64,000 nucleotides of DNA, from positions 2,908,972 through 2,972,971 of the forward strand of contig NZ_AP023032.1 of the NCBI RefSeq assembly GCF_019670105.1, given 5' to 3'. The DNA comes from Agarivorans albus (GTDB lineage Bacteria; Pseudomonadota; Gammaproteobacteria; Enterobacterales; Celerinatantimonadaceae). Under the pieces are notes generated by a model. That model worked only from the letters and a program-made list of their open reading frames with translations. It made no database searches and was not told the origin of the DNA. A program made the translations under genes and the position numbers. Positions 39,951 through 58,119 of the stretch are shown here, piece after piece (position 1 is the stretch's first letter; every line of letters starts with the position of its first letter).

Positions 39951-41087
39951 TTATGAGGTAAGGAAAAAATCGTTAATTTTGTCAACTATATAGTCTATTT
40001 CGTTAGTGTCCAAACCAAAGTACATTGGTAATCTAATCAGTTTCTCACTTTCTTCTGTTGTATACAGGTCTTTTCCACTCAACCTTCCAAAGTCTCCACC
40101 TGCAACAGAAGAGTGTAGAGGAATATAATGAAAAACAGCCATAATATCATTCAGTTTTAGGTGCTCGATTAGCTTAGTTCTTGTATCAATATCAATTACT
40201 TTAAGATAAAACATATGGCCATTATGTACACAATTTTTAGGTATACTAGGTAACTCTACTTTTTTCCTATCAGCTAGCATATTTAGTTTTTTATTGTAAG
40301 ACTTCCATGATGCCAGGCGATTAACATTAATTTTGTCAGCTTTTTCTAATTGACCATACAAATAAGCAGCTTGAATATCCGATGGTAAATAACTACTGCC
40401 TAAATCAACCCAAGAATACTTATCAACCATACCTCTAAAGAATTGAGTTCTATTTGTTCCCTTTTCTCTAATTATTTCAGCCCTTTTGACAAAAACTTCA
40501 TCATTTATAATAAGTAAACCGCCCTCACCTCCACTTGTGTAGTTCTTAGTTTCGTGAAAGCTATATACACCTATATGCCCTATAGTACCTAATGGTTTAT
40601 CTTTATAAGTTGACATCATTCCTTGGGCAGCATCTTCAATTACATATAATCCGTGGTGATTAGCAATGTCCATAATAGTATCCATTTCACAGGCTACCCC
40701 TGCATAATGGACAGGTACGATAGCTTTTGTCTTGTTTGTAATAGCCTGTTCAATCAATGTTTCATTCATGTTCATTGTATCAGGACGCACATCTACAAAA
40801 ACTATTTTTGCACCACGCAATACGAAAGCATTCGCAGTGCTGACAAAGGTATAACTTGGCATGATAACTTCATCGCCAGGTTGTATATCAATTAGAATCG
40901 CTGCCATTTCAAGAGCTTGAGTGCAGTTTGGAGTTAATAGCGACTTAGCACAACCCAATTTTTTTTCAAACCAAAGGTGACATAACTGTGTATATTTTCC
41001 ATCACCAGAAATTTTATCACTACACATAGAATCAAGCACATGTCTCTCTTCATTGCCAGTATACGGTGGTTTGTTAAATGGAATCAT
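39951..41087 (-). CDS. wecE: dTDP-4-amino-4,6-dideoxygalactose transaminase WecE
   Basis: The 378-residue PLP enzyme is strikingly similar to enterobacterial WecE: LLTPNCTQALEMAA, GDEVIMPSYTFVSTANAFVL, VPVHYAGVACEMDTIM, and PLP Lys181 in SFHETKNYTSGGEGG. It aminates dTDP-4-keto-6-deoxyglucose (from RmlA/RmlB in this window) to dTDP-Fuc4N. The neighbouring acetyltransferase and WecF-like transferase complete a Fuc4NAc module. It overlaps the upstream acetyltransferase gene by 14 bases. Confidence 0.93.
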   Translation of the reverse strand: MIPFNKPPYTGNEERHVLDSMCSDKISGDGKYTQLCHLWFEKKLGCAKSLLTPNCTQALEMAAILIDIQPGDEVIMPSYTFVSTANAFVLRGAKIVFVDVRPDTMNMNETLIEQAITNKTKAIVPVHYAGVACEMDTIMDIANHHGLYVIEDAAQGMMSTYKDKPLGTIGHIGVYSFHETKNYTSGGEGGLLIINDEVFVKRAEIIREKGTNRTQFFRGMVDKYSWVDLGSSYLPSDIQAAYLYGQLEKADKINVNRLASWKSYNKKLNMLADRKKVELPSIPKNCVHNGHMFYLKVIDIDTRTKLIEHLKLNDIMAVFHYIPLHSSVAGGDFGRLSGKDLYTTEESEKLIRLPMYFGLDTNEIDYIVDKINDFFLTS

Positions 41088-41646
41088 TACTATTCTCTTT
41101 TAAAAATTCATGTTGTAATTTTAATAGGTTTTTTTTACGTTCTTTTATACGAACAGCGGGACAGCCTAAATAAATCCCCCATGGCGTTGTTGACTTACGA
41201 AGTAATGTCATAGCGCCTAAAGAACACCCTTCCGCTACAACAACTCCTGGAAAAATAACTGAATTAGTACCAACAATAACATTTTTTTCTAAAAGAACGG
41301 GGGAAAAAATTTCAGATTTATATTTACTATCTACAAGAGAATTAACCATGGTTAGACCAGAATAGTCATCTGATTGCGAAAATATTTTTACTCCATAAGC
41401 TAAAGTGCAAAAATCAGACAGTGTCACTCCCAATTTACCTCCTGCAATCAGGCACATTGGTGTAATATGAACATATTTGCCTATATTAATTTTACCTGAT
41501 AAAATACAAAAATCGTCTACTCTCGATTCATTTCCGATACTGATCATATCAGCATCATAAATACACGCTTTATCACTAATTTTTACGTTTTCACCTAAAA
41601 ATTTAAAACCCATTTTTTTCAGTTGCGCATTAGTTAGATATGACAT
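41074..41646 (-). CDS. Hexapeptide-repeat acetyltransferase, probable dTDP-Fuc4N N-acetyltransferase
   Basis: The 190-residue left-handed beta-helix protein has NVKISDKACIYDADMISIGNESRVDDFC, HITPMCLIAGG, and NSVIFPGVVVAEGCSLGAMTLL. It is not homologous to GNAT-type WecD, but sits exactly between wecE and the wecF-like gene, so acetylation of the 4-amine of dTDP-Fuc4N is the likely role. That would be a non-orthologous replacement of WecD. An O-acetyl role cannot be excluded. Confidence 0.72.
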   Translation of the reverse strand: MSYLTNAQLKKMGFKFLGENVKISDKACIYDADMISIGNESRVDDFCILSGKINIGKYVHITPMCLIAGGKLGVTLSDFCTLAYGVKIFSQSDDYSGLTMVNSLVDSKYKSEIFSPVLLEKNVIVGTNSVIFPGVVVAEGCSLGAMTLLRKSTTPWGIYLGCPAVRIKERKKNLLKLQHEFLKENSNDSI

Positions 41647-41647
41647 G

Positions 41648-42751
41648 TTAAAAACCCTCGAATAAATCTCTTAATTGTTGGTGATATTTTTCCTTAGAAA
41701 AGTTACTTTTAATCATCTCTATATTAGCTTGTTGATCACATGAATTGATAGTGCTAATGGATAATTCATTTACATCGAAGACTTTAACACCTATATCTTT
41801 AAAAAGTTCCCAACTTGTGACATCACTTCTTAAATACACCTTTTTACCTAAGCCCAGGAGGGAAATAGTATTCCCCATAGCCTGTTGTCTTTTATGTGCA
41901 AATATTGCTATATCGATTTTCCCCAAAAAACCTAAATATTCTTCAAAACTCATAAAATCAATTACTGGAATAAATTTGTGGCCAAATAGGTCTTCCCCAC
42001 GTTTAATTACTTTCTGAGCCCACCCTGGAGACCAAGGCTTTTCTCCGTAGGATAAGATGCAATATATTTCAATATTTTCATCTTTAAATTTTTCTAGCTT
42101 ATTAAAGATTTCAAAATGATTATTTGCAGAATCTGCCGAATTACCAACTTGAATACGTACGATACCATCATTTAACTTATTTAACTCTACTTCGTTAAAT
42201 GTATTACTTTCATACATTAAGGCCTCAAAAAACTCTCCTTTGGAACCATAAAGTTCTTGCGCAAGTTTGTAATCACCAGGTAAGTAAGAAACATACCCGG
42301 AGAAACGTCCTTTAACCTTTTTAGTAATTCTGTACCAAAGAGTTCGACTTTGAGCTTTTGTCGGTATATCTAGGTCTCCCCCTCCCCACATCTGCCAATA
42401 AACTTTATTCGAAAAAGATTTGAAAACATAAAGAAAAATGATAACTTTCTTGTCAAAAAGACCATGTAAGTAAATCTTTTTAGCCTTGTTAAAATACCAT
42501 AACAATAAGACCATAGAGCTTGGCACTTTATAAACCAACATCAGCTTTCTGAGAAAACTGTTCTTACAATCAAATGGCTTTGCTATTTTTACATTTTTAT
42601 AAGCAGCCATTTCAACTGAACTTTCTTTGTTAGAGTTTAGTACTAAAAAAAAATGTTCTTCGGCATCAAAGTTAGAATTGACATATTGAATGAAAGGCTT
42701 TATGAATTTCATTTCATTGCCAACTATATGCAAATGTTTCAGGTTTCGCAT
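41648..42751 (-). CDS. Fuc4NAc transferase, WecF-like (GT56)
   Basis: The 367-residue GT-B enzyme starts LKHLHIVGNEMKFIKPFIQYV and contains KVYWQMWGGGDL, IVRIQVGNSADSANNH, LSYGEKPWSPGWAQKVI and IAIFAHKRQQAMGNTISLL, which align by pattern with WecF of the enterobacterial common antigen pathway (the WGADL, VGNSGDRSNEH and RQQGIG blocks). It should add Fuc4NAc from dTDP-Fuc4NAc to a lipid-linked acceptor. Its ATG follows AAAGAG. It is separated from the acetyltransferase by one base. Confidence 0.85.
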   Translation of the reverse strand: MRNLKHLHIVGNEMKFIKPFIQYVNSNFDAEEHFFLVLNSNKESSVEMAAYKNVKIAKPFDCKNSFLRKLMLVYKVPSSMVLLLWYFNKAKKIYLHGLFDKKVIIFLYVFKSFSNKVYWQMWGGGDLDIPTKAQSRTLWYRITKKVKGRFSGYVSYLPGDYKLAQELYGSKGEFFEALMYESNTFNEVELNKLNDGIVRIQVGNSADSANNHFEIFNKLEKFKDENIEIYCILSYGEKPWSPGWAQKVIKRGEDLFGHKFIPVIDFMSFEEYLGFLGKIDIAIFAHKRQQAMGNTISLLGLGKKVYLRSDVTSWELFKDIGVKVFDVNELSISTINSCDQQANIEMIKSNFSKEKYHQQLRDLFEGF

Positions 42752-44159: not shown

Positions 44160-44530
44160 ACTTAGAAATGCTATTAGCAAAATCCACACGTGTTTTAACG
44201 CCAATAAATAGCCAGCAAACACCACCAAAAACAAACCAGAAACAAACCAAAAGACAGCCAATCAGGAGCAGTTTAGCAATACCCCAACCATCGATATGCT
44301 AAAGCTTAGTAAGGTAATACATATAAGAGTCTGCTTAGAAGTAAAGGCAGCGCGCATAAATATTTGATGTAAATGGTCACTGTCTGATTTTAAGGGCGAT
44401 TGTCCTTTCCGCTTAAAGCGAATCGTTACACCAGCCATATCCACAAGTGGAACAGCGATTACCCATAAGGCTGTAACGGGTTTAAAAGCTAGAGCCTCAC
44501 CTTGTGAGCCTATTGCCAGCAACTTCAATT
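44160..44530 (-). pseudogene. wecA: Truncated wecA copy (C-terminal fragment)
   Basis: The sequence from LLAIGSQGEA to VLLNC matches the C-terminal part of the intact WecA at 56998-58119; 74 of 86 aligned residues are identical by eye. Nucleotide similarity continues past the frame's stop to about 44160, in the region matching the WecA tail, where the reading frame is lost. The N-terminal two thirds, including the Asp-rich catalytic motifs, are missing, and DHLHHIF has become DHLHQIF. A 108-codon frame (44262-44588) spans the junction, but it is unlikely to be functional. Confidence 0.88.
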
Positions 44531-44603
44531 TCCATAAATATTCCAAAGTTAAAAATTGGATACCTTGATTACTTGGCTTAGATGGCATTTTGTTTACTTA
44601 ACA

Positions 44604-46505: not shown

Positions 46506-47201
46506 CTATTTACGACTCTCGAGCTTAAAACTTGCAAAAAGGAAATCATCAACATCATCAATATCAATCGACTTACTATTTTCCATAACAAACGCACTAA
46601 TAGCGTCCGAGTAAACCCTTCCTAAGTTCTTCTTAAGGTAACTCACTCTGTAGGCATATATTGCTCCATTTAGGCGATAATACTGCGGTAAATCTTGGCT
46701 GCGCTTGCTTGCTATATCTTTAGGAATAAAGCCACCCATTAATTGACTGGCGGGCAAGGTGTTGCACCACATAGGGCTATGTTCACATTCGCAAACACTC
46801 ACCACTCCTTTTACATCACCTTCAATTAATTGTAGAGCTTCGCTAATATCGTTATTGTCCCGCAATGGTGACGTTGGTTGTAACAACACTAAAATATCGT
46901 CTGAATCTAGGTCAAGTTCATCGATAGCGTGTAGCAACACATCATCGGTAGAAGCACTATCACTCGCAAGTTTAGCAGGTCGCTCAAAGGGCACCGAAGC
47001 GCCATTTGATAAAGCTACATCTCTAATGATGTCAGAGTCAGAACTTACAACAACATTATCTATTTCATCGCAGCCTAATGCAGCCTCGATGGTCCAAGCA
47101 ATAAGGGGTTTACCAGCCAAATCTAGAATATTTTTACCGGGTAAGCGCTTACTACCGGCTCTGGCAGGTATTAATGCTACAATCTTAGTTTTATTAGGCA
47201 T
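46506..47201 (-). CDS. neuA: CMP-nonulosonate cytidylyltransferase (NeuA/LegF/PseF group)
   Basis: The 231-residue enzyme has the NeuA signature IPARAGSKRLPGKNILDLAGKPLIAWTI, LLQPTSPLRDNNDI and the C-terminal SKSIDIDDVDDFLFA. It activates a nine-carbon ulosonic acid with CTP for transfer. The single-domain form and presence of NeuB support a nonulosonic acid rather than Kdo, but the exact sugar cannot be told. It overlaps the end of the upstream fusion gene by 8 bases. Confidence 0.9.
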   Translation of the reverse strand: MPNKTKIVALIPARAGSKRLPGKNILDLAGKPLIAWTIEAALGCDEIDNVVVSSDSDIIRDVALSNGASVPFERPAKLASDSASTDDVLLHAIDELDLDSDDILVLLQPTSPLRDNNDISEALQLIEGDVKGVVSVCECEHSPMWCNTLPASQLMGGFIPKDIASKRSQDLPQYYRLNGAIYAYRVSYLKKNLGRVYSDAISAFVMENSKSIDIDDVDDFLFASFKLESRK

Positions 47202-48663
47202 TACTTTTTACCATTCCCTTAAAACTATTAAACCCAGCAATGCAATTGATAACTTCCTCCGAAATTAATTTAACTTCTTTTTCAGACAAATATACCGAAG
47301 TGGGCAAACTTATACCCCTCTTTGAAATTGCTTTAGCATTTCCAACCAATAATGATTGATAGTCTTTAAATGGGGGCATATCTGACATGGGATAAAATAT
47401 CGGCCTAGAATCAATTCCTAGCTTTGCCAATTTTGAAATTAAGTTATCTCTTTCTATCAAACAAGTTGATTTTAGTACCGCGGTGAAAAGCCACAGGCTA
47501 GATTGATAATTTTCGGGTAGCTGTTGAGTAGAAAAGTAACCTGAGCTAAGCAAGTACTTTTCATACCATGAAAATATATTGCTCCGCTTTTCCCTAAACG
47601 TCTCTAACTGCTCAAACTGCGCACAACCAATAGCAGCCTGTAAATTAGTTAGACGATAATTGTAGCCTACCACGTCATGCCAATATCGTTTGCCTGGAGT
47701 CATTCCATGGTCGCGCAATACTTTGGCCTTTTCATAGGCGCTAGCACTTTTAAAAATAACAGCTCCGCCTTCTCCGCAAGTGATTACTTTATTACCGAAA
47801 AAAGAAAAAGTGCCTACATCCCCAAATGTACCTACATGCTGACCGTTAATTGAAGAACCTAAAGCCTCTGCGCAATCTTCAACTACTAGTAGTTCATGTT
47901 TTTTAGCCAGTGTTATTATATCTGGCATATTACACGGAATCCCATAGATATGGACCGGCATAATAGCCTTAGTTTTATTACTAAGAGCCTTAATTAGTAG
48001 CTCTATTGACATATTCCATGTATTAGGTTCTACATCTACAATAACTGGCTTGGCTCCAGCTAAAACAACGGCATTCAAAGTGGCGCCAAATGTTATATCG
48101 GGTACAATCACCTCATCGCCAGGGCCTATCCCTAAGCTAACTAGTGCTAAATGTAATGCTACAGTCCCGTTACTTACAGCAAGTGCGTACTTGGCTCTTG
48201 TATACTCCATAATAGTTTGCTCAAATTGCTGAACATACTTTCCTTGAGACGAAACCCAATTAGTTTTAATACAATCAGTAACATATTCTAACTCATTACC
48301 GCCTAACAAAGGCTCTAAAACAGGCGTTCTATGTAAGCGATAATATGATGAAAAATCAACAAGCTTTCCTTCATCATCCAATAAAGGTATTACTTTAATT
48401 TTTTCATTTAGGGTTTGTTGAATTTCTTCTACTGATGCTGAGTGATGCAAATAAACATAATTTTTATTAAATATTTCAGTAATAGAGCCAGTAATGTCAC
48501 ATCCAGAGATAATCGATCTTCTGACATCACCATCAGTGAGAATACCTAATAGTTTCTGCTGCTCAACAACAAATAGTAAGCCTTGCGCATTATCATCTAT
48601 CTTTATTAATGCATTTTTCAAACTTTCGGTATGTTCAATGCATAAGTCTTGTAGTTGTACCAT
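47194..48663 (-). CDS. CBS-pair/DegT aminotransferase fusion
   Basis: Residues about 1-110 form a CBS pair (LLFVVEQQKLLGILTDGDVRRSII, then KVIPLLDDEGKLVDF), and residues about 115-489 form a DegT/DnrJ/EryC1 aminotransferase with LGGNELEYVTDCIKTNWVSSQG, GTVALHLALVSLGI and PLP Lys292 in FSFFGNKVITCGEGG. CBS pairs of this type are known on the nucleotidyltransferase PtmE in legionaminate clusters; here the pair is on the aminotransferase, suggesting nucleotide control of amino-sugar formation. It lies between the TIM-barrel protein and neuA. It may aminate a keto intermediate of the nonulosonate pathway. Confidence 0.85.
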   Translation of the reverse strand: MVQLQDLCIEHTESLKNALIKIDDNAQGLLFVVEQQKLLGILTDGDVRRSIISGCDITGSITEIFNKNYVYLHHSASVEEIQQTLNEKIKVIPLLDDEGKLVDFSSYYRLHRTPVLEPLLGGNELEYVTDCIKTNWVSSQGKYVQQFEQTIMEYTRAKYALAVSNGTVALHLALVSLGIGPGDEVIVPDITFGATLNAVVLAGAKPVIVDVEPNTWNMSIELLIKALSNKTKAIMPVHIYGIPCNMPDIITLAKKHELLVVEDCAEALGSSINGQHVGTFGDVGTFSFFGNKVITCGEGGAVIFKSASAYEKAKVLRDHGMTPGKRYWHDVVGYNYRLTNLQAAIGCAQFEQLETFREKRSNIFSWYEKYLLSSGYFSTQQLPENYQSSLWLFTAVLKSTCLIERDNLISKLAKLGIDSRPIFYPMSDMPPFKDYQSLLVGNAKAISKRGISLPTSVYLSEKEVKLISEEVINCIAGFNSFKGMVKSNA

Positions 48664-48665
48664 AT

Positions 48666-49511
48666 TTACCTCAATACTCCAGATAGCAATCTATATTGAC
48701 TTTCTAACACTGCTACATCACTTGTATAAACCTCAAGAGAGTAATACTCCAAGTCTTTACGTATATGTTGAACAAACCAAGATCGCTCTGTGAAAACCTC
48801 ATTGCTGTCTTCTAAGCCGTTGTTGTCACTAATATGGTAGGCTTTTGTAATTTTATTAAATCTATCTAAATAGTTAATAGGATCGAAGCCAAGAGTATTA
48901 GCTGATACTTTAAGGTGAGCAACGTCAATCAACAAACCAACATTATTTGGTACGCAGTCAAAAACCATTTCCGTTTCTTCACTATCAACCATTAGCAGTG
49001 GATTAGTATTAAATTGACTATAGTTTGCTTGTGAAAGAACATTATTTTCAATCAACAGCTCTACACCTCTGCTCTCAGCGTAATTAGCTAAGAAAACGAC
49101 ATTAGACACGAAGTTATCAAGTCCTGTAGCACGCTCAATTAAGCGCCTTTTATTAATCGAACGACCTAACTCTGAAGCGGCCGGATCTAATAAATAACCT
49201 GCGTGAAAACTATAATATTTACTACCATACTCAGCGGTTAAATCTATCGCTTGTTTGGCATGAGATAAGCTTTTACTTATTATGGCTTTATCACAACTTG
49301 CCAAATTGAAAACAAATGGTTCTTTGGGTACAGGGAAATAGTTATGCAAAGCAATACTGAAATTTTTTGAAACTTCAGACAAATCATCATTTAGCGATGA
49401 TGAGTAGCGTCCAGCTGATAGCTCTAAACCTCTAATTGTGCCATTATTTAGTAATTTAGAAGTTTCAAGAAAAGTTTTTTCGTGAAAACCTCCCGTGGAC
49501 ATATATATCAT
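48666..49511 (-). CDS. TIM-barrel sugar isomerase/epimerase-like protein
   Basis: The 281-residue protein has the xylose-isomerase-like/AP-endonuclease-2 TIM-barrel pattern: SFHAGYLL, GVELLIENN (metal Glu, about 155), GLLIDVAHLKVS (Asp/His, about 195), AYHISDNNG (His, about 224) and a late SLEVY Glu. Members are metal-dependent isomerases or epimerases of sugars and polyols. Placed between neuD and the CBS-aminotransferase, it may take the role usually played by a hydrolysing epimerase or supply the six-carbon precursor. No specific substrate can be named. Confidence 0.78.
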   Translation of the reverse strand: MIYMSTGGFHEKTFLETSKLLNNGTIRGLELSAGRYSSSLNDDLSEVSKNFSIALHNYFPVPKEPFVFNLASCDKAIISKSLSHAKQAIDLTAEYGSKYYSFHAGYLLDPAASELGRSINKRRLIERATGLDNFVSNVVFLANYAESRGVELLIENNVLSQANYSQFNTNPLLMVDSEETEMVFDCVPNNVGLLIDVAHLKVSANTLGFDPINYLDRFNKITKAYHISDNNGLEDSNEVFTERSWFVQHIRKDLEYYSLEVYTSDVAVLESQYRLLSGVLR

Positions 49512-50149
49512 TGCCTATACTCCTTTGCGGGAACACCTATTAGAGAGGAGCCTATTTTACTTGTAGACTTTATTACTACTGCGCCTGCACCAACTGTGAT
49601 GGATTCTGAAATGGTTATGCTTGGGATAACTGTAGAGGATGCTCCCAAAAAAACTAAACTAGATATAATTCCGCCTCCACACAACACACTACGCGGGGCC
49701 AAATGACTATGATCTTTTATGACACAATCATGTTCAATGATCACACCGCTATTTACAATATTGTTATTTCCCAATATTGAATTAGCATTAATAATTGCGT
49801 TGTGGAAAACAATATTCCCCCCCCCCATTTCAACTGTTCTATCAACTACTGCATATTTGGATATAGCGTTTGGCAAGGAAAACCCTGCAAACACTAACTG
49901 GTCAAAAACTAGCTTTCGAGTAATGTTATCTCCGATGGCAACAAAACAGGCAAAATGCTTATACTTAGCCTGATTTTTAAGAACAATTTCAAGAGTTGAA
50001 ATGACTTTATAACCACTTTTCTCTTCTTCAGGATCAAAGACTTTACTAGTATCGACCAAGCCTACAATTTCATAATCAACTGACTCTAGAACAGAGATCA
50101 CTGACGATGCATGGGAACCACAGCCAACCACAAGGCATTGCTTAGCCAA
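49508..50149 (-). CDS. neuD: NeuD-like sugar acetyltransferase
   Basis: Starting at the TTG at 50147-50149 (GGAG nine bases before it) the product is 213 residues beginning MAKQCLVVGCGSHASS, the normal NeuD start; a GTG at 50185 deep inside neuB is less likely. The C-terminal half is a hexapeptide helix (NAIINANSILGNNNIVNSGVIIEHDCVIKDHSHLAPRSVL), ending GVPAKEYRQ. It should N- or O-acetylate a nonulosonate or its amino-sugar precursor. The last bases of neuB overlap it. Confidence 0.85.
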   Translation of the reverse strand: MAKQCLVVGCGSHASSVISVLESVDYEIVGLVDTSKVFDPEEEKSGYKVISTLEIVLKNQAKYKHFACFVAIGDNITRKLVFDQLVFAGFSLPNAISKYAVVDRTVEMGGGNIVFHNAIINANSILGNNNIVNSGVIIEHDCVIKDHSHLAPRSVLCGGGIISSLVFLGASSTVIPSITISESITVGAGAVVIKSTSKIGSSLIGVPAKEYRQ

Positions 50150-51152
50150 GCTTATAATCTCCAATTCTAAGCATTTCTCCTTCACTAATATCTTTAGTCG
50201 CTGTAGCGCCTAGGATCGTATCCAATTCCTTTTCGTACAAACCTGTGCCAGGTCGCTTTAATACAAACATATCAGCTGTAAGCTTCTCGTCCTGTTTAAT
50301 AAAACAACGAGAAAATAAGCTTTTGCGCGAAATTTTTCGCATTTGCATCTCTTCTGTTTGAACTGTTTTTATAGGGCTACCTAGGGCAACTTCCGTTGTA
50401 CGAATAGCCTCAACCAACTCTTTAAATTCTTCAGGGTCACTTGACGCTTTATGATCTGGTCCAGCCATACTTTTATCTAATGTAAAGTGCTTTTCAACAA
50501 TAGTGGCTCCAAGCGTAGTGGCTATAACTGCCGGCAAAAAGCCGACTGCGTGATCAGAGTAACCGACATCACAATAGAACGCATTTTTTAGTGTTGAAAT
50601 AACGTTCAAGTTTAAACTTTGAATAGCGCAAGGGTAATTTGAAACACAATGTAATAAAGATAACTTACAATCTGCTTGTTGATATATTTTAACTACTCGT
50701 TCAATTTCGCCTAAGGTTGCCATTCCCGTTGACACAATCGCCAACTCAGCATTTTTAGCGATATATTCATGAAGAGATAAATCAACAATATCTGCGGAAG
50801 CCGTTTTAAATATGGTCACGCCTATAGATACTAAGAACTCTGCACTTTCGATATCGTAAGGTGTTGAAATGAAATCAATGCCTAATTGATTGCAATATTC
50901 AAATACAGGGATGTGATCAGTATAAGAAAACTCTAGCGCTTTAATCATCGCATAATGACTTTCATCACTAGCTGTTGTTGACTCTTGGTATTCGACTTTT
51001 GGTGTACCAGCACTTACTAATTTTTCAGCTGTAAATGTTTGAAACTTCACCGCATCGGCACCGGAAGCTTTAGCTGCATCTATCATTTTCTTCGCTAGTG
51101 CCACTGACCCCGCGTGGTTAACACCAATTTCTGCGATTACATAACAACTCAT
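50142..51152 (-). CDS. neuB: Nonulosonic acid synthase (NeuB/LegI/PseI group)
   Basis: The 336-residue enzyme has the NeuB TIM barrel (VIAEIGVNHAGS, ADAVKFQTFTAEKLV, FISTPYDIESAEFL, IVSTGMATLGEIE, GYSDHAVG, EKHFTLDKSMAGPDHKAS) and a C-terminal SAF/antifreeze-like domain from about 275 (KISRKSLFSRCFI, LKRPGTGL). It condenses phosphoenolpyruvate with a six-carbon amino sugar to give a nine-carbon ulosonic acid. By eye I cannot place it firmly in the sialate, legionaminate or pseudaminate subgroup. It follows fcl by 8 bases. Confidence 0.93.
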   Translation of the reverse strand: MSCYVIAEIGVNHAGSVALAKKMIDAAKASGADAVKFQTFTAEKLVSAGTPKVEYQESTTASDESHYAMIKALEFSYTDHIPVFEYCNQLGIDFISTPYDIESAEFLVSIGVTIFKTASADIVDLSLHEYIAKNAELAIVSTGMATLGEIERVVKIYQQADCKLSLLHCVSNYPCAIQSLNLNVISTLKNAFYCDVGYSDHAVGFLPAVIATTLGATIVEKHFTLDKSMAGPDHKASSDPEEFKELVEAIRTTEVALGSPIKTVQTEEMQMRKISRKSLFSRCFIKQDEKLTADMFVLKRPGTGLYEKELDTILGATATKDISEGEMLRIGDYKLG

Positions 51153-51160
51153 AAATGCCC

Positions 51161-52132
51161 CTACTTAACCCTAATGTGACCGTTGTGTTCAATAAACCAG
51201 TTGTATGTTTTTCTTAAGCCTTGATCGAGCTCTACCATATATTCCCACCCTAAAACCTTAAGTCTACCTACATCCATCAACTTCCTCGGTGCACCGTCTG
51301 GTCTACTTACGTCAAAGTTGATACTACCTTCAAACCCAACCACACTCGCTACTGTTTCTACTAATTCACGAATAGTGTAATCGACACCGCTCCCCACATT
51401 GATATGACTTAACATAGGCTGTGTATTATCCTTATACACTTGGTTGGATAAGTTCATAACATGAATTGAAGCATTCGCCATATCGTCTACGTATAAAAAC
51501 TCGCGCATTGGCTTGCCGCTTCCCCAAGCCACTACTTCTTTATCTCCGTTCAACTTTGCTTCATGAAAACGTCTAATTAGCGCAGGAATAACGTGGCTAT
51601 TTTCAGGATGAAAGTTATCATTAGGCCCATACAAATTCGTCGGCATGACACTACGATAATCGCGACTATATTGGCGGTTGTAGCTTTCACATAACTTGAT
51701 GCCAGCAATTTTTGCTACTGCGTAAGGCTCGTTGGTTGGCTCTAACTCACCTGTTAACAAAGCAGACTCGGCCATAGGCTGTGTCGCTAATTTAGGGTAG
51801 ATACAAGATGAACCCAAAAATAGTAGTTTTTGCACATTCGCTAGATGCGCGGCATGAATCACATTACATTGAACCATTAAGTTTTCATAAATAAAGTCTG
51901 CAGGGTAGGTGTTGTTTGCCACAATGCCCCCAACTTTTGCCGCAGCTAAGTATACTTGATCAATATTCTCAGTTTTGAAAAAATCGAACACAGCTTGCTG
52001 GTTAGTTAAGTCGAGCTCATCACGAGTGCGAGTAATTATATTGCCATAACCACTTGCCTCTAATTGCCGCACTATGGCCGAGCCCACCATACCACGATGC
52101 CCAGCAACAAAAATTCTACTATTAAGCTCCAT
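51161..52132 (-). CDS. fcl: GDP-L-fucose synthase
   Basis: The 323-residue SDR enzyme has [44 protein letters not shown] and the catalytic [13 protein letters not shown], followed by [23 protein letters not shown]. It epimerises and reduces GDP-4-keto-6-deoxymannose to GDP-L-fucose. It directly follows gmd, whose product is its substrate, and precedes neuB. Confidence 0.97.
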
Positions 52133-52136
52133 CTAA

Positions 52137-53270
52137 CTACCCTTGGTTTTCTACAGCAATAGCTACATTATGTCCGTGAGCCTTTAACAAAGCGTGTTGC
52201 TTTGCTTTACTCAAATCGTGCTGCACCATCTCTGCACACATTTCTTCTACTGTGATTTGTGGCTCCCAGCCCAACTTAGCTTTTGCTTTACTTGGATCAC
52301 CTAAAAGCGTTTCCACTTCTGCAGGACGGAAGTAACGTGGATCTACCTTAACGATTATATCACCAACTTTGAGCGCTGGTGCATTGTCACCAGTGATAGC
52401 AGTTACAGTGGCTATTTCATCAACCCCTTCACCAGAAAACTCAAGCTCTATGCCCGCTTCTCTAGCAGACAGTTTAACGAACTCTCGTACGCTAATTTGC
52501 TTGCCGGTGGCAATTACAAAGTCATCTGCTTGCTCTTGTTGTAACATCATCCACTGCATACACACATAGTCTTTTGCGTGTCCCCAATCGCGCAGTGCAT
52601 CCATATTACCTAGGTATAAGCAAGGCTCTAACCCTTGCGAAATATTTGCAATAGCGCGCGTAATTTTACGGGTTACAAAGGTTTCGCCACGGCGCGGCGA
52701 TTCGTGATTAAACAAAATACCATTACAGGCATACATGCCGTATGACTCACGATAGTTCACTACAATCCAATATGCGTACATTTTGGCAACTGCGTAAGGT
52801 GAGCGCGGGTGAAATGGTGTGGTTTCTTTTTGTGGGATTTCCTGCACTTCACCGTAAAGCTCTGAGGTAGATGCTTGATAAAACTTAGTTTTCGTTTCTA
52901 AGCCTAAAAAGCGAATAGCTTCTAACAAACGTAAAGTTCCCATGGCATCGACATCTGCGGTGTACTCTGGGCACTCAAAAGAAACCGCAACATGAGATTG
53001 AGCCGCAAGGTTATAAACTTCGTCTGGCTGTATGTCTTTAATAATACGGGTTAAGTTAGATGAATCGGTTAAATCACCGTAGTGCAAAAAGAACTTGGGG
53101 TTTGATTCATGCACATCTTGGTAAATGTGGTCTACTCGGTCAGTATTTAATGATGAAGCACGGCGTTTAATACCATGTACCTCATACCCTTTTTCTAATA
53201 GTAACTCCGCAAGATAAGAGCCATCTTGGCCCGTCACACCGGTAATTAAAGCCACTTTATTTTTTGACAT
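52137..53270 (-). CDS. gmd: GDP-mannose 4,6-dehydratase
   Basis: The 377-residue enzyme has [40 protein letters not shown], the catalytic [10 protein letters not shown], and [16 protein letters not shown], all invariant in Gmd. It makes GDP-4-keto-6-deoxy-D-mannose. Gene order manC-manB-gmd-fcl in transcription direction is a complete GDP-fucose pathway from fructose/mannose phosphate. The ketone could also serve amino-sugar branches. Confidence 0.97.
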
Positions 53271-53322: not shown

Positions 53323-54750
53323 TTAAAGTGACCTAATATTCGTTAAACTTTTTTCAACGCTTGCTATTGCCTGCTCGACCGTCTCGGCTTCTGCATAACA
53401 GCGCAATTCTGGCGCATTGCCAGATGGTCGTAAGTGCACAAACTGTTGATTGTCCAACTCAACTCTCAAGCCATCAGTGGTGTTCACAGATATAATAGCC
53501 AAATCGCCAAAACCTAAGCTTTGCATTAACCAATGTGGGTCTTTAGTACCATCAGCAACGATTTGTTGGCTTTTTTCCGTGGCAAAATTTTGGATCCGGT
53601 CACTGTCAGTAAAGCGCTGTGGTAATTCTTCGACTAAGGTACTAATGTTTGCGCGCTGTGCAGCCACTAACAACATAAGTGCTGGTAACACCGCATCTCT
53701 CGTTGGTAAAGCTTTTAACAGCTTACCGTTCACCTGAATATCGCTACCAAGCAAAAAGCCGCCATTGGCTTCAAAGCCAGCTACTGATGAGTACTCATTG
53801 TTCAACGCCGCGAACTCTGCAATCACATAAGGAGAGCCAATTTTAGTGCGTTTTACAAATTCAAATTTATTACTTAGCTCAATCGCGGTATTACAACTAA
53901 CCGGAATAGCCAAAGCACTCACATTGAGCGCATCAGCACAAAGCAGGCCTAAGATATCACCACGTAACCACTCGCCGTTTTCATCTGATACAAGCGGTCT
54001 ATCACCATCACCATCGGTAGAAAACACCACGTCAAGATTATACAGCTTTGCCCAAGCTCTAGCTTTACGCTTATCCTCTTGTGATACTGCTTCGGTATCA
54101 ATAGGTACAAAGCTATCACTGCGCTCGATTGCCACAACTTCAGCACCTAAGGCTTCAAAAATCCGGTAATACAAGTCTCTACCCGCACTAGAGTGCTCAT
54201 AAATACCAATACGCTTACCGCTTAAAAAAGGGTGTTCAAACAGCGAGGTATAACGGGTGACGTATTCTTCTACAGCGCGGTTATTTATTTCAAGTGCAGG
54301 CAGACTTTCAAGCGCTTTAAACCCAACGCTTGCGTTAATAATGGCCTGTTCATCATTTTTGGAGATTTCGCCGTCAGGGCGATAAAACTTAAGGCCATTT
54401 CTATCAAAAGGAATATGGCTGCCGGTAACCATAATTGCCGGCATCTGTTCCTCTTGGGCTAAATAAGCCAAGGCAGGCGTAGGCACGACCCCGTAGTAAA
54501 CAACCTGTAAACCTTGCTGTTGAAGTGCTGCGACGCAGGCTTGCGCCATTGCATAACTACTAGGACGATTATCAATCGCTATTGCAACGGTATCGAAAGT
54601 AAAATTAACGCACATACTTTCTATAAAGGCATGACTGAAGGCCGCACATACATCCGGCGTAAACTGGGTCACCAAACCTCTGGCGCCACTGGTACCAAAC
54701 GCTACACCGCTGTCTTTAATGACTTTACTCGTAGTTAGATTAATTACCAT
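53323..54750 (-). CDS. manB: Phosphomannomutase ManB
   Basis: With the ATG at 54750 the protein has 475 residues; the longer frame to 54840 would lie inside manC and is unlikely. It shows [10 protein letters not shown], the phospho-Ser loop [13 protein letters not shown], the metal loop [11 protein letters not shown], and FEANGGFLL, typical of alpha-phosphohexomutases. The phospho-Ser loop reads TGSHIP rather than the commoner TASHNP, as in some ManB subgroups. It interconverts mannose-6- and mannose-1-phosphate for ManC. Confidence 0.9.
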
Positions 54751-54766
54751 TGGTGTGTTCGTCTCC

Positions 54767-56167
54767 TTATACTCGGCCGTATTTATCTTCAAAGCGAACA
54801 ATATCGTCTTCGCCAAGGTAACTACCGGTTTGCACTTCAATCATTTCTAGTGGGATTTTTCCGGGGTTTTCTAGGGCATGTACTGTACCTAACGGAATAT
54901 AAATGGACTCATTTTCAGTCACCAATTGTGTTTCTTCGCCTCGCAACACACTGGCTGTACCAGATACAACAATCCAATGCTCGGCACGATGATAATGCTT
55001 TTGAATCGACAGCTTGCCACCGGGCTTCACTGTGATCCGTTTTACCTGATCGCGAGCACCAGTACCTATAGAGTCATATTTCCCCCAGGGGCGATACACT
55101 TCACGGTGATTTTCATATTCGCCGCGTTTATCCGCTTTAAGTTGTTCAACGATTTTTTTTACGTCTTGTACGCGACCCTTATCAGCAACCAGCAAAGCGT
55201 CTTTGGTATCAATGACCACAACGTCATCAAGGCCAACCGCAGCGATTAGGCGCTCTCCGCCATGCACCAAGCAATTACTTGTATCGTGGAGCATGTTGTC
55301 GCCAATACTAACATTGCCCTTTTCGTCTTTAGCGTTCACTTCCCATAAAGACGACCATGAGCCAATATCGTTCCAACCGGCATCAAGTGGCACTACTACG
55401 GCGTCTTTGGTGTGTTCCATTACCGCATAATCAATGGACTCGTCGGGACACTGCGCAAAAACCTGAGCATCCAAACGAATAAAATCTTGATCCTTAGTGG
55501 TGTTGGCCATAGCTTTGGTGCAAACCTGTGCGATGTCACCCCTACACCGAGTCAACTCTTCTAAGTAGCGGCTGGCCTTGAATAAAAACATACCACTGTT
55601 CCAGTAGAATTTACCACTATTTACATATCCAGCGGCTGTGTCTGCATCAGGCTTTTCAACAAACTGCTCTACTACATAACCATTACCATCAGCCATGGAA
55701 TCACCTCGTTGAATATAGCCATAACCGGTGTGAGCTTTATTTGGCACAATGCCAAAAGTCACTAACTTACCAGCTTGCGCTAAGGGGATAGCGTTGTTTA
55801 ATGCTTCTCGAAAAACGCCAGCATCTTGAATAACATGATCGGCAGCCAACACTAATAGTAATGGATCATCATCCTTCGCTGCCTCTGCAGCAATAGCTAC
55901 TGCAGGAGCTGTATTTCGACCAACTGGTTCAAGAATAATTGATGCTGATTTGTCTATGGTACGCAACTGTTCTGCGACTACAAAACGGTGCTCTTCATTA
56001 CAAATAACCATTGGCGAGTTTGTCGCAACGCCCTCTAAACGATTAATGGTTTCTTGTAACATGGTATTCAGCGATGTTAACGCAAGAAACTGCTTGGGGT
56101 ACAAAGAGCGACTTAACGGCCATAAACGCGACCCTGTGCCGCCAGCCATAATCACAGGAGTAATCAT
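54767..56167 (-). CDS. manC: Mannose-1-phosphate guanylyltransferase/mannose-6-phosphate isomerase
   Basis: The 466-residue bifunctional enzyme starts [29 protein letters not shown] (GTP-binding pyrophosphorylase loop), has [10 protein letters not shown] and the C-terminal cupin with [35 protein letters not shown], the phosphomannose isomerase type II domain. It supplies GDP-mannose for gmd and fcl. It starts 57 bases after gmm. Confidence 0.96.
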
Positions 56168-56224: not shown

Positions 56225-56695
56225 CTAAATAAACTTTGCGTCTGCCTGTTTCCAGTCTAGAAAATACCATTTGCTATGTTCGTGAACGTCGGGGTTAAGA
56301 AGTAACTCCTTCTCAGCAACCCATTGATATTCGCAATGCTGTTCTTCTGGAAGCGCGAGCAGCTCTTGCTCAACATCTAACTCGTATGCTAGCACCACGT
56401 AATGAGTCGTAAAATCCTCAGCAGAAAAGTTGTCATCGTAGAAGTGCTGATAAATACCTTTAAATTGTGCAGAGTTGATCTCTAGCCCTAATTCTTGGTT
56501 TACCAACCTAGCAAAAGCGACATTAAATACCTCGTCTTTTAAAATTCGACCACCAGGTACAAACCAGTAGCCCTTAGCTGGACGATTGTTGCGTTTGCCT
56601 AACAATATTTGACCGCTAGTGTTACGCACAATAAAATCAATCGAAACCAAAGGTGTCGATTGTATAACGGTTTGAAAAGTTTCTAATTCAAGCAT
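56225..56695 (-). CDS. gmm: GDP-mannose mannosyl hydrolase (Nudix)
   Basis: The 156-residue protein closely follows E. coli Gmm: STPLVSIDFIVRN, GKRNNRPAKGYWFVPGGRILKDE, IYQHFYDDNFSAEDFTTHYVVLAYEL. Its Nudix-type motif is modified, as is characteristic of this enzyme, which hydrolyses GDP-mannose or GDP-glucose to GDP and sugar and so tunes sugar-nucleotide flux. First gene of the GDP-mannose group in this operon. Confidence 0.94.
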   Translation of the reverse strand: MLELETFQTVIQSTPLVSIDFIVRNTSGQILLGKRNNRPAKGYWFVPGGRILKDEVFNVAFARLVNQELGLEINSAQFKGIYQHFYDDNFSAEDFTTHYVVLAYELDVEQELLALPEEQHCEYQWVAEKELLLNPDVHEHSKWYFLDWKQADAKFI

Positions 56696-56997: not shown

Positions 56998-58119
56998 CTA
57001 AGCACTTTTTTGCTTAGCTCTAGAAAGCTTTATTTGATTGACCCTTCGCATACGCCTAAATGCAGTCACCCGTCGGAATGCTTTTAGCAAACGCCAAACG
57101 TGCTTTAAAGCCATTAAGTAACATGCAAAAACCACCAAAAACAAAGCAAAAGAAAACCAATCAGGAGCATTAAAACAATTTAGAAGCACACCTACCATAG
57201 AGATACTAAAGCTAAGTAATGTAATGCAAATAAGTGTTTGCCGAGAGGTAAACCCTGCACGCATAAAAATATGATGTAGGTGGTCTCTATCAGGCTTAAA
57301 AGGAGATTGTCCTTTACGCTTACGGCGAATCATAACACCTGCCATATCCATAAGTGGGATAGCAATTACCCATAATGCAGTAACGGGTTTAAAGGCTGGT
57401 GCTTCACCTTGAGAGCCAATCGCCAACAACCAAACTACACTAAGCCCCACAAACATTGAGCCTGCGTCTCCCATAAAAATTTTACTTCTTTTGGGATTAT
57501 CAGCTCTAGCGAGATTAAATATAAGGTAGGGGATTAGGGCTACCACAAGGCAAAGAGCTATCCATGACTCCAGCACAAAGCCTTCTAGTATGAACAGCAA
57601 TGATAAAGACAACATACTGGTAAAGGTAACCCCGCCAACAAGGCCATCTATACCGTCTACCATGTTGTAGGCATTAATGGCGCCCATAATGGCCAAGTAG
57701 GTAAAGGGAACGGCTGCCCAGCCTAGGTGAATATCGCCCATTACCAATAAGTTACCTAAGTTTTCTATACGGTCTCCGCTTGCAAACATCATTACGCTGG
57801 CCGCGACTATTTGGCAGAACATGCGCAAAGAAACACTAAGGTCATATTTGTCGTCTAGCATGCCTACTAACAATATGCCACCAGAGGCTAATAAAAAGTA
57901 CTTAAACGAAATGTCATAACCTTGGGCTATAACCAATAAAGACAATACAAAGCCTATGTAAACGGCTAGCCCACCAATTAGCGGTATTGCGCCTACATGC
58001 AGCTTTCGCTCGTTGGGTTTGTCTACTAATTCGTGCTTAATCGCAATTGGCTTTAGTACTTTAATCGCGCTGTAGGTACCTAAAAAAGCAACCATTAAAG
58101 ACAAGATGAAGGTACTCAT
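56998..58119 (-). CDS. wecA: Undecaprenyl-phosphate GlcNAc-1-phosphate transferase WecA
   Basis: The 373-residue integral membrane enzyme has about eleven helices and the family motifs GMLDDKYDLS, NAYNMVDGIDGLVGG, KIFMGDAGSMF and HLHHIFMRAGF. It transfers GlcNAc-1-phosphate (or a related HexNAc) from the UDP-sugar to undecaprenyl phosphate, starting synthesis of this locus's repeat unit. A truncated copy of its last third is found 13 kb away. It follows wzz by 36 bases. Confidence 0.95.
   Translation of the reverse strand: MSTFILSLMVAFLGTYSAIKVLKPIAIKHELVDKPNERKLHVGAIPLIGGLAVYIGFVLSLLVIAQGYDISFKYFLLASGGILLVGMLDDKYDLSVSLRMFCQIVAASVMMFASGDRIENLGNLLVMGDIHLGWAAVPFTYLAIMGAINAYNMVDGIDGLVGGVTFTSMLSLSLLFILEGFVLESWIALCLVVALIPYLIFNLARADNPKRSKIFMGDAGSMFVGLSVVWLLAIGSQGEAPAFKPVTALWVIAIPLMDMAGVMIRRKRKGQSPFKPDRDHLHHIFMRAGFTSRQTLICITLLSFSISMVGVLLNCFNAPDWFSFALFLVVFACYLMALKHVWRLLKAFRRVTAFRRMRRVNQIKLSRAKQKSA

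Follow-up and report, generated by a model that had tools for sequence, protein, structure and literature searches.

We analysed a 64,000-nucleotide stretch of the Agarivorans albus genome (contig NZ_AP023032.1, positions 2,908,972 to 2,972,971; hereafter the window; the whole genome is a single contig of 4.79 Mb), and in it a cluster of five genes related to nonulosonic acid synthesis. These encode a NeuB-like synthase, a NeuD-type acetyltransferase, a TIM-barrel protein of family PF01261 (hereafter the TIM protein), a CBS pair fused to a DegT aminotransferase, and a NeuA-like cytidylyltransferase. A first-pass annotation had pointed out the five packed genes, the unusual CBS-DegT fusion and a TIM barrel without an assigned role; profile searches found all five in place on the minus strand, the fusion included, with the PF01261 match over its cut-off. 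The cluster and its upstream neighbours are:

46506..47201, minus strand: NeuA-like CMP-nonulosonate cytidylyltransferase (PF02348, E 4.8e-25), the proposed last step
47194..48663, minus strand: CBS pair and DegT aminotransferase fusion (CBS E 2.3e-10, DegT E 1.5e-115)
48666..49511, minus strand: TIM-barrel protein (PF01261, E 3.6e-16; 60.1 bits against a cut-off of 31.1)
49508..50185, minus strand: NeuD/PglD-type N-acetyltransferase (TIGR03570, 177 bits, above the cut-off of 160.8)
50142..51152, minus strand: NeuB-like synthase (PF03102, E 9e-87)
51161..52132, minus strand: fcl-like gene (GDP-L-fucose synthase, named by homology; Pfam Epimerase)
52137..53270, minus strand: gmd, GDP-mannose 4,6-dehydratase (PF16363, E 3.6e-155)
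53323..54840, minus strand: phosphomannomutase-like (manB-like) gene, GDP-mannose supply (PGM_PMM domains I-IV)
54767..56167, minus strand: manC-like gene, GDP-mannose supply (NTP_transferase and MannoseP_isomer domains)
56225-56695: NUDIX gene beside manC

The genes from gmd to neuA form one run on the minus strand, neighbours being separated or overlapping by 2 to 44 bases, and manC, manB, gmd and fcl lie directly upstream of the neuB-neuD-TIM-DegT-neuA run on the same strand. Gmd is thus available in this genome. The first-pass annotation had seen no NeuC or LegG, and a profile search of all 4.79 Mb agreed, with 0 matches to PF02350, the family of both enzymes. PseG and PseI are likewise not in the five-gene cluster; both belong to a separate pseudaminate locus (L011, at about 2.876-2.896 Mb of the same genome and about 18 kb outside the window). 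There the second full-length NeuB of the genome is a PseI (485 bits, above its cut-off), it adjoins a PseG-like gene scoring 147 bits, just below the cut-off of 153.55, and PseB, PseC and PseF all lie above their cut-offs within the same 20 kb. An extra, divergent DegT-like gene (L011:4322-5437) follows the PseF gene of that locus.

A profile scan of named genomes returned 73 further loci with a TIM gene, which by record title come from Pseudomonadota, SAR11, Prochlorococcus, another cyanobacterium, Bacteroidota, a Lysinibacillus and a planctomycete. Among 99 related genomes the protein was found in that of A. albus only, and among 369 genomes drawn from the class in three, A. albus included. 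Two scans of viral contigs gave zero TIM relatives, as did phages; distant matches in halophilic archaeal plasmids were set aside, the one examined (L008) lying in a phosphonate cluster. Apart from the TIM gene, the genome has one PF01261 gene, at L085. Within 6.5 kb of the TIM gene, the distance used for all neighbour counts (several contigs end inside it), we found NeuB in 67 of the 73 loci, DegT in 62, NeuA in 54 and either NeuD or a GNAT acetyltransferase in 46. Because TIM, NeuB and DegT recur in most of these loci, their arrangement is not one of chance. The set exists as described, is conserved and matches none of the classical routes. In L033, gmd, NeuB, NeuD, TIM, DegT, NeuA and manC are joined in one run; the Lysinibacillus locus (L053) is similar and holds two manC-like genes (90 and 103 bits), DegT, gmd, NeuB, TIM and NeuA together.

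The closest solved relative of the aminotransferase is the Caulobacter perosamine synthase 3dr7 (338 bits), ahead of 7b0m (270) and of 1o61 (225), which we take to be C. jejuni PglE. Over the DegT domain it shares 44% identity with each of 3dr7 and E. coli O157 RfbE, and 33-38% with 12 LegC proteins. A DNA search of E. coli with the DegT matched 303 of 5426 genomes, and the 20 matches listed were all rfbE/perA. LegC is its best NCBIfam model, at 368.9 bits and short of the cut-off of 420; no perosamine synthase model was among the 25 shown.

We then placed the DegTs in a tree of 96 rows (97 entered, one lost in trimming) with only two PerA references, omitting L090 (incomplete open reading frame), L102 (the window itself), L105 (a repeat of L044) and L106 (a fragment). 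CBS fusions were called by a length of at least 440 amino acids; two proteins so called, L046_13291 and L063_13279, are not CBS fusions, which leaves 41 CBS rows, and a strict TDGDxRR-like motif is present in 34 of 44 sequences of CBS-fusion length. One branch of 77 rows (support 100/99) unites the 41 CBS fusions, the window protein, seven of the eight CBS-less DegTs near a gmd-like gene, both PerA and the LegC, PglE and 7b0m group. The last three form a sub-branch (99/98; the 12 LegC 100/100) with zero TIM-linked rows. The CBS-less DegTs of the 77-row branch with gmd inside the gene run (L018, L033, L034, L036, L039, L053 and L055) are interleaved with the CBS fusions; E. coli PerA pairs with that of L055, and Caulobacter PerA sits in a 14-row branch (95/91) whose other members are TIM-linked save one. 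Six of eight DegT rows from loci with SDR12, a short-chain dehydrogenase/reductase (SDR) without assigned activity, fall in a different branch. Another tree, of 45 rows with six others as its root, again set LegC apart (100/97) and again gave no resolved order for the backbone. Two points here tell against a perosamine-type reading: the sub-branch of the window DegT (24 rows, 97/93) consists of CBS fusions and five gmd-linked DegTs with zero PerA, and the trees leave the backbone, and hence the tie of the window DegT to PerA, without a resolved clade. LegC is thus excluded for this domain, and PerA is favoured by similarity and gmd linkage, not by a resolved clade. On this sequence evidence the aminotransferase probably makes GDP-perosamine.

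Such an activity would draw on the product of Gmd. The gmd gene lies within 6.5 kb of TIM in 10 of the 73 loci; an eleventh gmd-labelled gene (L081, 182 bits against a cut-off of 415) was not counted, and that of L039 (410) was. Over 74 loci (the 73 and that of an Azospirillum plasmid), 41 have a CBS fusion as their nearest DegT and 21 a CBS-less one; in 1 locus the DegT is cut off, and 11 have none. A gmd-like gene or SDR12 lies within 6.5 kb in 15 of the 21 CBS-less loci versus 4 of the 41 CBS loci (p=1.3e-6); CBS loci with gmd nearby are L029, L066 and L072. Taken at face value, the 37 CBS loci with neither gene in that distance (some contigs end inside it) might mean that the CBS-DegT uses a keto-sugar needing no 4,6-dehydratase, so that the five genes would be a complete route to another amino-nonulosonic acid and gmd an accidental neighbour. 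We consider this very unlikely, given the interleaving of CBS fusions and gmd-linked DegTs in the tree and the results of whole-genome searches. Of the 74 TIM-locus genomes, 50 were searched whole, and 44 of them contain gmd at E<=1e-90; among those with a CBS-type locus and no gmd in the operon, gmd is found elsewhere in 33 of 34. The genomes without it are L021, L032 and L060 (all SDR12), L050 (SDR12; gmd fragments at contig ends), L016, whose locus has no CBS fusion, and L052.

In SAR11, gmd is present in 63 of 118 genomes, three TIM genomes of this set included (60 of 115 without them); it is present in 13 of 13 genomes with a CBS or gmd-type locus (in L022 and L026 as fragments or weak matches) and in 0 of 3 with SDR12 loci. 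For CBS-type loci with gmd outside the operon the figure is 11 of 11, against the background of 60 of 115 (p=0.0013), and at the curated cut-off gmd was found in 9 of 13 versus 31 of 118. A relative of the window fcl accompanies this arrangement: of the 34 genomes that have a CBS fusion and lack gmd in the operon, 26 contain it, compared with 1 of the 10 whose operon includes gmd (p=2.7e-4). In those 26 genomes it lies within 150 bases of gmd in 20 and within 2.2 kb in 24, as in the window. We propose that the fcl product competes for the same Gmd product.

These data suggest a pathway. Gmd would convert GDP-mannose to GDP-4-keto-6-deoxy-D-mannose in the first committed step, the DegT part of the fusion would aminate C4 to give GDP-perosamine, and NeuD would acetylate the 4-amino group. 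The TIM protein, a putative metal enzyme with endonuclease-IV-like residues, would then free GDP and 4-acetamido-4,6-dideoxy-D-mannose, which NeuB would condense with phosphoenolpyruvate before NeuA makes the CMP-sugar. The first-pass annotation had guessed that a gmd-derived GDP-sugar may be the source, which we count as right. Its suggestion that the TIM protein replaces the epimerase is not needed: the C2 configuration required by NeuB is present in mannose from the start, so that no C2 epimerase is missing, and the one step to be accounted for is release of the sugar.

Several results weigh against this pathway at the level of its substrate. In 12 control loci with LegC, gmd lies within 6.5 kb of LegC in two, so that proximity to TIM (10 of 73) is no more frequent. 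Since related loci are not independent, the CBS/dehydratase contrast must be counted in pairs, and it then amounts to 5 independent pairs on starred branches, of which about 4.7 run in the direction stated above and on average 0 in the reverse (p 0.06), too few pairs to reach 0.05. Moreover, L052 is a CBS fusion locus in a genome without gmd.

The window NeuB scores 392.7 bits against the cut-off of 399.65 for TIGR03569 (NeuB) and 285 against 340 for PseI, and thus reaches no curated subgroup; the NeuA-like protein scores 162 bits to the PseF model, under the cut-off of 205.7. In a tree in which the window sequence was entered twice, it falls in a clade with 23 TIM-linked NeuBs (100/99), outside PseI and the main LegI group. 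The first-pass annotation had set its idea of a new route against two possible findings, a hydrolase homologue elsewhere in the genome and a NeuB inside a characterised subgroup; the first exists, as the PseG-like gene of the separate pseudaminate locus, and the second does not, the window NeuB belonging to a TIM-linked clade of its own. NeuBs of this clade keep the residues that we assume to be catalytic (Neisseria meningitidis, Nm, numbering) except that Nm E134 is D in 24 of 24; this position is E in 7 of 8 LegI and 4 of 4 PseI, and elsewhere among the TIM-linked NeuBs (37 rows) D occurs in 20, E in 6 and Q in 5. Positions Nm 79, 133, 184 and 289 differ as well. These substitutions would fit a different sugar. 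Acyl genes vary among the TIM loci, being NeuD-like in 40 of 73, of one GNAT family in 6 and of another GNAT family in L042, with a formyltransferase and a FemAB-like protein in the Lysinibacillus locus; this variation fits an amine substrate.

The TIM-linked NeuBs do not, though, form one clade. Seven of them (L014, L024, L036, L048, L069, L070 and L074) group with 8 of the 12 LegI, among them that of L036, which has an operon gmd, with that of L014 nested within, and this speaks against a single uniform product. It also lends some weight to a legionaminate-type route, in which a dehydratase, and perhaps an acetyltransferase, for di-N-acetylbacillosamine would come from a set at 17-21 kb of the window, and the TIM protein would be a hydrolysing or free-sugar 2-epimerase replacing LegG, in keeping with the sugar epimerases among its PF01261 relatives and with LegC as the best NCBIfam model of the DegT. 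In this set, the PglF-like protein scores 178 bits to the PseB model, which is below cut-off, the PseC/PglE-like DegT reaches no cut-off at all, and the NeuD-type acetyltransferase is above its own; we presume the genes of the first two to be pglF and pglE. This origin, also raised in the first-pass annotation, is disfavoured because the window DegT is not part of the branch that holds LegC and C. jejuni PglE and is nearer PerA in sequence. In addition, a dehydratase-type SDR (81-92 bits to one reference) adjoins LegC in 12 of 12 controls, whereas the five window genes include none, and the LegB cut-off was reached by 0 of 10 SDR proteins scanned from TIM loci. We regard a legionaminate-type route as unlikely, though not negligible.

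Within the GDP-perosamine pathway, the TIM protein is assigned to sugar release mainly by elimination, because every other step has an enzyme. Comparison with the controls is in line with this: of the 12 LegC loci (11 genomes), 10 carry LegG in the cluster, beside LegC or NeuB, and none carries TIM. In the TIM loci, a search with a LegG profile placed LegG-like genes within 6.5 kb in just three (L035, L059 and L069); a PseG-like gene was seen in L057 alone, and in all four cases the gene stood outside the module. TIM genes also appear to have been exchanged between CBS and SDR12 loci (L060 with L083, 99/97; L050 with L041, 99/89), as expected of a common downstream step shared by loci with different upstream genes. 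Among solved structures, MJ1311, endonuclease IV and tagatose 3-epimerase rank top for the TIM profile; the match to E. coli endonuclease IV (Nfo) has E 1.4e-5 and 19% identity. Conservation is 95% or higher, among the residues present across 76 sequences, at each of eight positions: H56, H103, E155, D196, H199, H226, D235 and E260. The last seven align with Nfo H109, E145, D179, H182, H216, D229 and E261, which we take to be zinc ligands, the alignment showing agreement of letters only. Of the ninefold ligand set of endonuclease IV, seven positions thus align directly. The residues favour a hydrolytic metal site over a plain epimerase, without proving it.

Set against this are the other two positions, since TIM H56 matches Nfo H69 only with a loop insertion and N237 stands at the position of the ninth ligand, H231. 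The fold relatives include sugar epimerases. PF02350 proteins over the cut-off are encoded elsewhere in 24 of the 50 TIM-locus genomes, so that supply from outside the cluster is possible there, and in A. albus the NUDIX gene beside manC could hydrolyse the GDP-sugar. Perosamine may then be right and the TIM protein an epimerase or aldose-ketose isomerase acting before NeuB, as its membership in the fold family of tagatose and psicose epimerases would allow, with GDP freed by another enzyme such as the NUDIX protein. We find this rather improbable: the conserved residues match extra ligand positions of endonuclease IV, the exchange of TIM between loci with different upstream genes is that of a common downstream step, and the window NUDIX, searched against related loci, matched just one genome, and weakly (21 and 16 bits; L033, 9.8 kb from TIM). 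All together, we lean towards the TIM protein being the hydrolase.

The nearest NCBIfam models of the CBS pair are the sugar isomerases KpsF, GutQ and KdsD, and its GILTDGDVRR stretch resembles GIFTDGDLRR of E. coli KdsD; its 17 hits to solved structures are headed by AcuB and other CBS proteins and include arabinose 5-phosphate isomerases. A KpsF-type protein has reportedly been crystallised with CMP-Kdo in the CBS region, which literature searches did not confirm. By analogy, the aminotransferase is probably open to regulation through its CBS pair, perhaps with the CMP-sugar end product as the signal, although feedback by a CMP-nonulosonate is a fair guess and no more. We propose regulation because the Gmd product is here shared with Fcl, which would make GDP-L-fucose, and we read the CBS pair as going with a Gmd that is shared with GDP-fucose synthesis.

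As C1-C6 of mannose become C4-C9 of the product, the 2-hydroxyl becomes a 5-hydroxyl and the 4-amide a 7-amide. The predicted product is 7-acetamido-3,7,9-trideoxy-nonulosonic acid (7-acetamido-7,9-dideoxy-Kdn), C11H19NO8, with a computed mass of 293.111 Da and a computed [M+H]+ of 410.156 for its 1,2-diamino-4,5-methylenedioxybenzene (DMB) derivative; it is isobaric with 9-deoxy-Neu5Ac, so that mass alone cannot identify it. A literature search on the product mass gave no relevant result, and titles and abstracts on perosamine with nonulosonic acid or NeuB did not describe the route, most subscription journals being outside the coverage. The claims on the DegT, on the TIM protein and on the whole scheme stand or fall together; for the whole scheme with its product, we put the chances slightly better than even. 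A wider reading is somewhat less likely than not: a widespread and so far undescribed class of nonulosonic acids (7-acylamido, 5-hydroxy) made via GDP-perosamine, with an endonuclease-IV-like TIM protein as a new kind of nucleotide-sugar hydrolase and a CBS-aminotransferase that may sense the CMP-sugar and steer the GDP-fucose branch, and, judging by the SAR11 and Prochlorococcus genomes, possibly common in the surface ocean.

Variants of the module were also seen. The Azospirillum plasmid carries TIM and CBS-DegT beside annotated NeuA and NeuB, and this module (L007:6590-18798) lies with annotated HisH/HisF2-type and N-acetyl sugar amidotransferase genes; these neighbours suggest an acetamidino-modified nonulosonic acid. 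A second type of TIM locus (L021:10001-13599, L032, L050, L060, L070 and L079) consists of TIM, NeuD, SDR12 and a DegT of the other branch. Its SDR reached no NCBIfam cut-off in the 3 proteins examined, and of 4 such genomes searched 3 lack gmd and 1 has gmd fragments; this type probably makes another nonulosonic acid from another nucleotide sugar. In Prochlorococcus (L015:5892-12503 and L023), NeuB, NeuD and TIM are present and DegT was not seen within 6.5 kb; a 540-amino-acid HMGL-like (PF00682) protein follows TIM and a Gfo/Idh/MocA-clustered protein is nearby, making a further variant.

Two observations concern the surroundings of the cluster in the window. Near its downstream end, a 108-amino-acid open reading frame (44262-44588) seems by eye to be an incomplete, decayed version of the gene at 56998-58119; the two stand on either side of the manC-to-neuA block, perhaps as a mark of recombination or insertion. 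Further along, at 39951-42751, a WecE-family aminotransferase, a hexapeptide acetyltransferase and a GT56 Fuc4NAc-transferase-like gene are likely the dTDP-Fuc4NAc branch of the same polysaccharide.

If the scheme is true, the Neu, Leg, Pse and Kdn routes would be joined by one based on GDP-mannose, with no C2 epimerase and with an unrelated hydrolase; a sugar of specific mass (DMB derivative m/z 410.16) could be searched for in many bacteria; a family that public records label as no more than sugar phosphate isomerase/epimerase would gain a function; and the CBS fusion would make visible how a branch point between nucleotide sugars is controlled. Excerpts of published accounts describe LegG in UDP- and GDP-linked legionaminate routes (PMC6137143), SpsG in the B. 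subtilis route (PMC7439481), clusters of Vibrionaceae (PMC7371886) and 4-epilegionaminic acid in a Shewanella O-polysaccharide (PMC3210612).

Among the closest known systems is the CMP-legionaminate pathway (LegB, C, H, G, I and F, including the GDP-linked C. jejuni form), which likewise runs through a dehydratase, a DegT, an acetyltransferase, sugar release, NeuB and NeuA. It differs in that the genome here has no LegG and a TIM barrel in its place, that the DegT is below the LegC cut-off and outside the LegC branch, and that the predicted C5 substituent is a hydroxyl and not an N-acetyl group. In the CMP-pseudaminate pathway (PseB, C, H, G, I and F) a hydrolase also frees the sugar without C2 epimerisation, but PseG is not in the cluster here and is not a PF01261 protein, and the genome has its separate Pse locus. 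The Neu5Ac pathway uses NeuC (PF02350), absent from this genome. The Kdn pathway shares the predicted C5 hydroxyl, whereas the C7 amino group, the 9-deoxy position and the presence of DegT and NeuD set the predicted product apart. GDP-perosamine synthase (RfbE/PerA) resembles the fusion in DegT identity and in its association with gmd, but lacks the N-terminal CBS pair, and the product here would feed NeuB and not a perosaminyltransferase. Finally, the TIM protein shares its fold family with endonuclease IV and the PF01261 sugar epimerases, and, as far as the alignment goes, most of the presumed ligand positions with the former, from which it departs by its low identity to E. coli Nfo, by asparagine in place of H231 and by its company, NeuB, in nearly all TIM loci.

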